Below, one piece after another: positions 50,334-52,313 of a stretch of 53,315 bases of DNA (the first letter of the stretch is position 1; each line of letters opens with the position of its first letter). This stretch comes from Eudoraea sp. Lineage in GTDB: Bacteria; Bacteroidota; Bacteroidia; Flavobacteriales; Flavobacteriaceae. A program made the position numbers and the translations under genes. The stretch covers positions 1-53,315 of the forward strand of contig JAHEHU010000008.1 in NCBI GenBank assembly GCA_024639765.1, given 5' to 3'. Below the pieces are notes generated by a model. That model was not told where the DNA came from, did no database searches, and was given only the letters and a program-made list of their open reading frames with translations.

Positions 50334-52313
50334 TTAAGACAATACCCTATTTAGCTTATTATTCAACAATTTGTTCAATTGAAGGTAGTTCACGATCTCC
50401 TCTAATACCTCCTGGTTATCATCCGTATTGTGCTCTGTGTCTTTCTGTAAATTATTGATCCTTTTTTTGATGAGATAACACCGTAAGGTGAGGATGGTTT
50501 CGCTTACCAATTGAGAAATTGATGTAGCTTTATCCTTGGGGTAAATATCTTTGCTTTCCCAATTGTGGAGTCTGTACTTTTCTTCCTCCATTAAAATAGA
50601 GGAAATATTATTAACCAATTCCTGATCTAGTTCATTTAAAAAGGAGGCAATACTAAAATCTTCTTTTTCATTCAGCGTCTCTATCAGGCTGTAATAGATC
50701 TTTCTGAAATGGTCATGTGTCATTTCGATCTCATCTTCCTGAAGATCCAAATAGATCTTTTCATATACCCTCGATTCAATGCGTTCCGGTTCATGAACAA
50801 GTTCTCCAAATTCATTTTCCTTTAAAACAACATCTTCGAATACTTCATGCTCTTTCCCGTAGAGAAGTAATATCTCGATGATCTTTCTCTCCAATTCATA
50901 TTGTACATCCACCTTCGTTTCTCTGGGTGTCTCACGGATCACCTCAAAGGCTTTTTGCTCGTTCTTTGCTTGTTTACTGGCCTCGTTATAAGCCTTTTTA
51001 CTAATCTGGGCCAGGGTGTTGAACAAAACCTCCTCAGAGATATTCATCATTGCAGCACATTGTTGAATGTAGAGCTCCCGTTTAATACGGTCCGGGATCT
51101 TGGCTATACTCCCAACAATATCGCGTATAGTATCTGCTTTTTTTATGGGATCATTGGCGGCTTCCTCTGCCAGTAGAGAGGTTTTGAATTGGATAAAATC
51201 CTTGGCTTGTTCCTCCAGATACAGGACAACCTCTTCATATGAATTGTTCTTGGCGAAACTATCCGGGTCCTCTCCCTCCGGGAACGTACAAATGCGCACA
51301 TTCATTCCCTGTTCCAGAATCAGATCTATACCACGCAAAGATGCCCTTAGTCCGGCTGCGTCACCATCAAACAATACGGTAATATTTCTTGTCAGCCTAT
51401 TGATCATTCGGATCTGTTCCGGTGTTAAGGCCGTTCCACTCGAAGCCACTACATTATAAATGCCTCGTTGATGTAGTTGTATGACATCCGTATACCCTTC
51501 AACAAGGAAACAGTTGTCTTCCTTGGCTATGGCCTGTTTTGCATAATAGATACCATACAGAACCTTACTTTTATGATAGATCTCGCTCTCGGGCGAATTC
51601 ACATACTTGGCAGCTTTCTTATCACTGGTGAGGATGCGACCTCCAAATCCCAGGACCCTTCCACTTAGGGAATGGATAGGAAATAATACCCTTCCTTTAA
51701 ATCGATCAAATTTTCTGGTCTGTCCGGGTCTTGAGGTGTCTTCCTTAACAATGCTAAGTCCTGTTTTTTCCAGAAAAGACAGCTGATAGCCGTTATCAAT
51801 GGCGTGATTCGTAAATGCATCCCACTCATCGAGCCCGTATCCCAGGCCAAACTTACGGATGGTCTCTTCCGTAAAGCCACGTTCCTTGAAATAACTAAGG
51901 CCTATTGCCTTTCCCGGTTCTGAATTCCATAAAATGTCTGAAAAATATCCCTGGGCAAATTCCGAGACAAGATACAGACTCTCTCGTTCGTTGGCCTGTT
52001 CTTTCTGCTCATTGGTTTGCTGTGTTTCCTCAACCTCTATCTGATATTTTCTGGCCAGATACTTAATGGCCTCCGGGTAGGTGAAATGCTCATGCTCCAT
52101 CAAAAAAGCCACCACATTACCACCCTTGCCACTACTAAAATCCTTCCATATCTGTTTTACAGGCGATACCATAAAACTAGGAGACCGTTCATCAGTGAAC
52201 GGACTTAAGCCCTTGAAATTAGAGCCCGACTTCTTAAGGTTCACAAAATCGCCGATAACCTCCTCTACGCGGGATGTTTCGTATACCTGATCTATGGTGT
52301 TTTTTGATATCAA
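50334..52313 (-). CDS. dnaG: DNA primase DnaG, zinc ligands of the CHC2 domain absent
   Basis: Synthesises RNA primers at the replication fork. The toprim catalytic core is intact: LVEGYTDVIQLHQ with the catalytic Glu near residue 270, and LFDGDAAG near 315. The N-terminal domain keeps the CHC2 fold pattern (GLSPFTDERSPSF, IWKDFSSGKGGN, FLMEHEHFTYPEA) but the four zinc ligands, Cys40, His43, Cys61 and Cys64 in E. coli, are Ser37, Thr40, Asp58 and Ser61 here, with identical spacing. The C-terminal helicase-interaction region is divergent and acidic. Start is TTG 52313: it gives the canonical MISKNTID beginning and no ATG is available upstream. 659 residues. Confidence 0.95.
   Translation of the reverse strand: MISKNTIDQVYETSRVEEVIGDFVNLKKSGSNFKGLSPFTDERSPSFMVSPVKQIWKDFSSGKGGNVVAFLMEHEHFTYPEAIKYLARKYQIEVEETQQTNEQKEQANERESLYLVSEFAQGYFSDILWNSEPGKAIGLSYFKERGFTEETIRKFGLGYGLDEWDAFTNHAIDNGYQLSFLEKTGLSIVKEDTSRPGQTRKFDRFKGRVLFPIHSLSGRVLGFGGRILTSDKKAAKYVNSPESEIYHKSKVLYGIYYAKQAIAKEDNCFLVEGYTDVIQLHQRGIYNVVASSGTALTPEQIRMINRLTRNITVLFDGDAAGLRASLRGIDLILEQGMNVRICTFPEGEDPDSFAKNNSYEEVVLYLEEQAKDFIQFKTSLLAEEAANDPIKKADTIRDIVGSIAKIPDRIKRELYIQQCAAMMNISEEVLFNTLAQISKKAYNEASKQAKNEQKAFEVIRETPRETKVDVQYELERKIIEILLLYGKEHEVFEDVVLKENEFGELVHEPERIESRVYEKIYLDLQEDEIEMTHDHFRKIYYSLIETLNEKEDFSIASFLNELDQELVNNISSILMEEEKYRLHNWESKDIYPKDKATSISQLVSETILTLRCYLIKKRINNLQKDTEHNTDDNQEVLEEIVNYLQLNKLLNNKLNRVLS

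Follow-up and report, generated by a model that had tools for sequence, protein, structure and literature searches.

We asked whether a replicative DNA primase can carry a CHC2-type N-terminal domain that has none of its four zinc ligands. The question is raised by the dnaG gene that closes the window (the whole stretch of DNA analysed, 53,315 nucleotides of one Eudoraea sp. contig, JAHEHU010000008.1). The gene is an open frame of 659 aa on the minus strand, with a TTG start, and its parts are the following:

50334–52313, minus strand: dnaG, DNA primase, 659 aa (translation and profile matches)
52311–52313, minus strand: TTG start of dnaG; many relatives have Met at the aligned position
52020–52307, minus strand: CHC2-type N-terminal domain (PF01807), residues 3–98, without zinc ligands (94.4 bits and predicted fold)
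51537–51908, minus strand: DNAG_N (PF08275), residues 136–259, with KYVNSPES at 51585–51608 (domain profile and motif search)
51255–51509, minus strand: Toprim_2 (PF13155), residues 269–353, with EGYTD at 51486–51500 and DGDAAG at 51351–51368 (domain profile and motif search)
51030–51176, minus strand: DnaB_bind (PF10410), residues 380–428 (38.3 bits, cut-off 20.6)

On every sequence test that we applied, the Eudoraea protein is a DnaG primase. It scored 417.8 bits with the TIGR01391 dnaG profile (cut-off 283.6) and 94.4 bits with PF01807 (cut-off 24.9), both TOPRIM motifs and the basic motif KYVNSPES were found, and the DnaB-binding region scored above its PF10410 cut-off. With the frame open, the core motifs intact and the TIGR01391 cut-off passed, we agree with the first-pass annotation that the gene is not a pseudogene. 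Matches reported by PADLOC to reverse-transcriptase-linked primases were due to the common DnaG part only and were set aside.

The translation of 50334–52313 (minus strand) contains KGLSPFTDERSPSFMVSPVKQIWKDFSSGKGGN in the N-terminal region of the zinc positions. Its HMMER alignment with Aquifex DnaG (2au3) pairs CPFH with SPFT and KCFGCG with KDFSSG and has no gap. Thus the ligand spacing of 3, 18 and 3 is retained while all four CHC2 ligands are absent, both as the first-pass annotation had read them, and the span 52131–52205 corresponds exactly to residues 37–61. The first-pass annotation places the counterparts in E. coli DnaG at Cys40, His43, Cys61 and Cys64. In the list below, as throughout, zinc-less is defined by sequence (none or one of the four ligands kept), and the counts refer to the 204 zinc-less proteins described further on:

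52203–52205, minus strand: Ser37 for ligand 1 (Cys), from translation and alignment; Ser in 204 of 204
52194–52196, minus strand: Thr40 for ligand 2 (His), from translation and alignment; a variable site in zinc-less primases
52143–52145, minus strand: Lys57, aligned with the Lys before the third Cys of Aquifex DnaG
52140–52142, minus strand: Asp58 for ligand 3 (Cys); Asp in 174 and Cys in 30 of 204
52134–52136, minus strand: Ser60 for the zinc-knuckle Gly; Ser in 202 and Ala in 2 of 204
52131–52133, minus strand: Ser61 for ligand 4 (Cys); Ser in 140 and Thr in 64 of 204

Because Ser, Thr, Asp and Ser take the place of the defining Cys-His-Cys-Cys, the alignment makes the domain a member of its family by descent and not a zinc ribbon.

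The predicted structure is consistent with the fold having been kept. An AlphaFold model of residues 2–99, made from 48 aligned zinc-less sequences, had a mean pLDDT of 94.6 and a pTM of 0.84, and its only two significant Foldseek matches were solved zinc domains, 1d0q_A (E 3.8e-11, rmsd 1.1) and 2au3 (E 2.7e-9). The first-pass annotation had proposed a comparison with Geobacillus DnaG; in VIA-align the model superposed on this structure (1d0q, Z 16.6, rmsd 1.3 over 97 residues) and on 2au3 (Z 15.8), and the next rows were T4 primase and Twinkle (Z 5.6–6.2). The zinc-domain fold is therefore predicted to persist without the ligands. As no metal was modelled, as the method tends to return the family fold and as the input rows came from zinc-less relatives, the model cannot speak to the stability of the domain.

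The first-pass annotation had named a second dnaG with intact ligands in the same genome as one finding that would overturn its claim. A profile search of the Eudoraea genome, a draft of 225 contigs and 3.19 Mb (completeness 99.59, contamination 4.21), returned a single PF01807 match, dnaG itself. A second dnaG was thus not found in this draft, and the genome does not hold the pair of C-plus and C-minus forms. We also considered a general avoidance of Cys or zinc motifs and rejected it, since the zinc domains of DNA ligase (two frames) and the zinc motif of RecR, the two families compared, keep their Cys in Eudoraea, and relatives with a zinc-less dnaG also encode other primases with CHCC (L182, L183, L184 and L193). 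Zinc is therefore apparently in supply, and within these comparisons the loss concerns dnaG specifically. The two Eudoraea ligase frames (L412 and L413, 627 and 669 aa) represent either a paralogue or contamination. Separately, five Flavobacteriaceae genomes carry second DnaG-like proteins in frames of 1065–1186 aa (L177–L181), which are also without zinc ligands (SVDS, STCS, STDS, SSDS and SACT at the ligand positions).

How far does this state extend? In the family of Eudoraea, 119 of 120 genomes matched PF01807, with best scores of DnaG-length proteins between 92 and 104 bits, and all 30 loci that were returned and read letter by letter were zinc-less, which goes beyond chance. All 98 genomes searched in its order also matched; among the loci read there, families f108, f111, f113 and f115 have the four ligands, and f2, f104–f107, f109, f110, f112, f114 and f116 are zinc-less. 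Family f111 also holds one zinc-less frame, L162, of only 457 aa. The suggestion that the pattern is probably clade-wide in Flavobacteriaceae was right about the state shared within the family. It was too narrow in extent, as zinc-less primases occur far beyond the family and do not form one clade.

Our survey covered one phylum, Bacteroidota. At the class level 148 of 149 genomes matched PF01807; letters were read in about 76 of the 148, mostly those with the lowest and highest scores, so that three-ligand forms could sit among the unread middling scores, and G412, G419, G410 and G367 (≤113 bits) belong to the unread part. Zinc-less primases were read in families f3, f6, f7, f8, f51, f54, f61, f65, f81, f85, f90 and f102, and both states occur within f3, f8, f61 and f81, and also within f32 of another class. 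A scan of named genomes with the pattern K[QG]I[FWY]K[DC]FS, which selects zinc-less forms, identified f3 as Sphingobacteriaceae and its genus g28 as Mucilaginibacter among the best 80 of 540 confirmed matches; in the same best 80 the holders were genera of Flavobacteriaceae, Riemerella, Chryseobacterium, Crocinitomicaceae and Cryomorphaceae. The state is also found in Weeksellaceae. In Sphingobacteriaceae, 60 of 61 genomes matched PF01807; g28, g372 and g374 scored low and were zinc-less in the letters read, and the other genera scored 118–128 bits. For Mucilaginibacter, PF01807 was found in 97 of 100 genomes, and the 40 distinct primases read were all zinc-less.

A short stand-alone PF01807 match is also present in at least 43 of the 100 Mucilaginibacter genomes, in some cases with a stop inside the match. 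These domains of about 90–120 aa (L312–L323) had intact CHCC in 12 of 12 loci read, from 11 genomes, and the matches listed for g372 and g374, the zinc-less sister genera, included none. They could act in trans on priming.

In other classes we searched 45 lower-scoring genomes and found zinc-less forms in 14 of 14 distinct primases of f17 and 2 of 2 of f28. These two families are taken to be green sulfur bacteria, because the FMO antenna protein was found in 7 of 7 of their genomes tested (against 0 of 4 of the others). At the f17 and f28 loci (L395–L429) the zinc-less dnaG keeps only Cys58 (STCT, STCS or SKCT). At another locus, L424 (G179, family f39), the dnaG frame is interrupted within the zinc domain, with CHCC letters upstream, likely through an assembly or sequencing error.

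The comparison took in 326 distinct proteins of DnaG type. All four ligands are present in 122 of them, a single one in 37 and none in 167, and no form with two or three occurred in the set. The first-pass wording, a primase without any of the four ligands, therefore holds for Eudoraea and most of its relatives, but 37 of the 204 zinc-less proteins retain exactly one. The numbers 122 and 204 are not frequencies, since sampling was biased to the ends of the score range, Mucilaginibacter alone gave 40 rows and 76 of the 326 proteins came from the pattern-selected scan. The picture was the same in the 250 proteins that remained without the pattern-selected rows (122 keep four, 36 one and 92 none). 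The filter had left out 83 PF01807-like frames that were short, cut or not of DnaG type; among these were one CHCS (L433, phage-like, 448 aa), one CCCC, one NEDT and L162. The lack of two- and three-ligand forms among the proteins compared points to instability of a ribbon with an incomplete ligand set, and to a loss that is all-or-nothing. Some twelve per cent of the zinc-less forms have Cys58 as their sole remaining ligand.

The substitutions follow a fixed pattern. Besides Ser37, all 204 zinc-less proteins have Lys57, Phe59 and Gly65; at residue 57, 98 of the 122 intact proteins have Lys, 19 His and 5 Tyr. Residue 60, Ser in nearly all of them, is Gly in 115 of 122 intact proteins. At residue 40 Thr, Ser, Ala and Val predominate, and 7 of the 204 retain His. 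Seven independent pairs were taken at starred (well-supported) branches. In all seven, Ser37 and the loss of His40, Gly60 and Cys61 track the state (sign test 0.0156; up to 0.0312 for His40 and Gly60 in some pairings); Cys58 tracks it in about six of them and Tyr56 in about five.

To count the switches between the two states we used trees of the catalytic core (own residues 105–440), from which the N-terminal domain was excluded; all were quick trees without bootstrap. Ligand loss, mapped among the relatives as the first-pass annotation had proposed, took 10 state changes in a tree of 75 rows (L039, L042 and L050 dropped as short), 19 in one of 109 rows (rows below 200 aa dropped) and 15 in one of 68 rows (16 named rows dropped because the filtered set did not contain them), and the least numbers forced by starred branches were 3, 7 and 7, respectively. 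A single zinc-less clade was rejected (84 rows, with 25 long or odd rows dropped; lnL 402 lower, p-AU 1.1e-54), and with it one origin of the loss. However, the number of losses is uncertain, as independent loss fits the columns flanking the ligands in the alignment no better than does transfer of the domain or compensation by linked changes. For the 65 domain columns that lie outside residues 34–66, 8 changes were enough (9 by FastTree), and six random draws of 65 core columns needed 17–28. This means that the domain moved as a 5' segment or that linked substitutions accompanied each switch. Both may be true.

One reading of these counts is that the zinc-less domain originated on only a few occasions and that homologous recombination then carried it from one lineage to another with the 5' segment of the gene, as a C-minus cassette, so that it did not have to evolve afresh in each; we give this somewhat less than an even chance. 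Besides the low number of changes in the flanks, it would explain why the domains of Mucilaginibacter and g374 are 0.80–0.91 identical while the g374 core lies beside that of the intact g377 (starred 98) and the Mucilaginibacter core elsewhere in the family. There is also a precedent in ribosomal protein S4, for which the sections available of one study describe movement of zinc and non-zinc genes between bacteria (PMC3087516). On the other hand, linked compensatory substitution (Ile20, Leu71, Thr69) would yield an identical signal in the flanks. Furthermore, residues 1–33 of the zinc-less L162 are closer to its intact f111 neighbours (0.80) than to Flavobacteriaceae (0.64), as a change in place would give; its middle part is at 0.87 and 0.82, respectively, and its C part is tied (0.61 and 0.61). 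L162 is weak evidence, because its 457-aa frame does not have the core motif pattern.

The remaining alternatives concern the domain itself. Its site might bind another metal, e.g. Mg or Ca, or might still hold zinc by way of different residues, and the Ser, Thr, Asp and Ser side chains are indeed of the hard-metal type, with Glu42 invariant in the 204 zinc-less proteins. Yet Glu42 is also present in 115 of 122 intact ones, residue 58 is Cys and not Asp in 30 of the 204, and position 40 is unconstrained, so that a shared hard-metal set is missing. New zinc ligands fare no better: residues 1–100 of Eudoraea DnaG contain no Cys, and their only His are His74 and His76, the only two positions at which more than 30% of the zinc-less proteins have Cys or His (His in 119 and 98 of 204), with no shared new ligand set among the 204. 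We regard metal binding of either kind as improbable. Decay of an unused domain, with priming left to the core and the helicase, appears a shade more improbable. It would account for the loss of all zinc ligands, and in T7, according to the sections available of a review, removing the domain or its ligands abolishes template-directed priming (PMC6163395); but 32 of 99 columns are invariant in the 48 aligned zinc-less sequences, Lys57, Phe59 and Gly65 never vary, and the domain passes the PF01807 cut-off throughout the 119 matching family genomes. An artefact is very improbable, whether it came from an error in sequencing, from contamination or from overlooking a second, intact dnaG. The 225-contig draft, its contamination value and its two ligase-type zinc domains leave some room for one, but the same letters recur throughout the family and in named genomes, whether finished or draft.

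We therefore favour, with good confidence, a reading drawn from sequence and model, in which the protein would be a replicative DnaG with a working zinc-free template-reading domain, a state arrived at more than once through a stereotyped set of substitutions and, probably, also disseminated as a 5' segment. The first-pass statement that the domain must fold and recognise the template without zinc is a fair inference from the retained predicted fold and the conserved Lys57. The zinc-less state has itself been conserved over long periods. According to this proposal, the domain would bind no zinc, still select the trinucleotide at which the template is started and hand it to the catalytic core as usual. 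Ser37, Asp58, Ser60 and Ser/Thr61 may form a putative hydrogen-bonded cluster joining the two loops formerly clipped by zinc, with a larger aromatic residue (Phe/Trp56) beneath it. The Gly of the zinc knuckle would no longer be needed and could give way to Ser60, and Lys57 would stay to read the template. The sections available of a study on C. difficile report that a Lys adjoining the ribbon contributes to trinucleotide preference, a feature common to Aquifex (PMC5204125). That this Lys corresponds to Lys57 rests on the Aquifex alignment, and we predict a trinucleotide preference similar to the one in C. difficile and Aquifex (5'-CCC). Repeated loss, together with a probable passage of the 5' part of the gene from one lineage to another, would have spread the zinc-less form in Bacteroidota, and the likely advantage, at a guess, is independence from zinc supply or from thiol oxidation.

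These observations can be set beside known systems. According to the sections available of a 2018 review, conservation of the three Cys and the single His is high in primases, and the role of the zinc motif is unresolved (PMC6163395). Published tests of T7- and E. coli-type primases, which speak against the proposal, tie zinc or its Cys to template recognition (PMC6163395, PMC3610141, both in part). Geobacillus (1d0q) and Aquifex (2au3) DnaG share with the Eudoraea protein the domain order, the N-terminal fold (as predicted here), the catalytic motifs and the DnaB-binding region, and Aquifex also the Lys before the third ligand, whereas in Eudoraea the four ligands are replaced and the knuckle Gly is Ser. 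Metazoan Twinkle likewise has a T7 gp4-type zinc domain without Cys (Foldseek rank 3, non-significant, E 0.17; Z 5.6), but its primase motifs and activity are lost, as described in part of PMC3610141, and the core motifs of Eudoraea DnaG are intact. Small mobile-type primases of Flavobacteriaceae (L185, L186, L190 and L192), with SPFR or SPLR and YDFG or YDHG, are also zinc-less and have Ser at ligand 1 and Asp at ligand 3; they differ in being a separate family with frames of about 285–320 aa, Arg at ligand 2 and Phe, Ile, Leu or Glu at ligand 4.

A further parallel is in C-minus ribosomal proteins such as S4, L31 and L36, where ligands were also lost recurrently from an essential housekeeping protein, with patchy spread and signs of transfer. 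Zinc-free forms of ribosomal proteins are well known, those of S4 having been transferred, and in Table 2 of the same source, as far as available, 7 of 8 ribosomal proteins are C-minus in Bacteroidetes and L32 is mixed (PMC3087516). DnaG differs in being a single-copy enzyme of DNA replication, unaccompanied by a C-plus partner in the Eudoraea genome. We found no report of a zinc-less DnaG in the literature on primase, zinc, Bacteroidetes or ligand loss, in a coverage that excludes most subscription journals; in their available sections, a Flavobacteriaceae study with DnaG as a tree marker (PMC4164334) and a review of replication proteins (PMC3290774) make no remark on the ligands. The zinc-less DnaG is thus a real and recurrent variant of a universal enzyme, and apparently an unreported one.

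More tentatively, and as an idea that we think rather less probable than its opposite, zinc may be dispensable for template reading by DnaG altogether: a second, zinc-free design (S-P-F-x ... K-[D/C]-F-S-[S/T]-G-K-G-G) would have changed places with the zinc form on many occasions within one phylum, in part as a mobile 5' cassette and with no viable state in between, and a separate intact ribbon, as in the stand-alone CHCC domains of Mucilaginibacter, may act on priming in trans. Natural primases without zinc ligands, beside close relatives that have them, would allow a direct comparison of metal and no metal on the same fold and core, and the theme of zinc-free housekeeping variants extends with them from ribosomal proteins to the replication fork. 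The finding also bears on primase as a drug target, because compounds directed at the zinc site would miss bacteria with a zinc-less DnaG.
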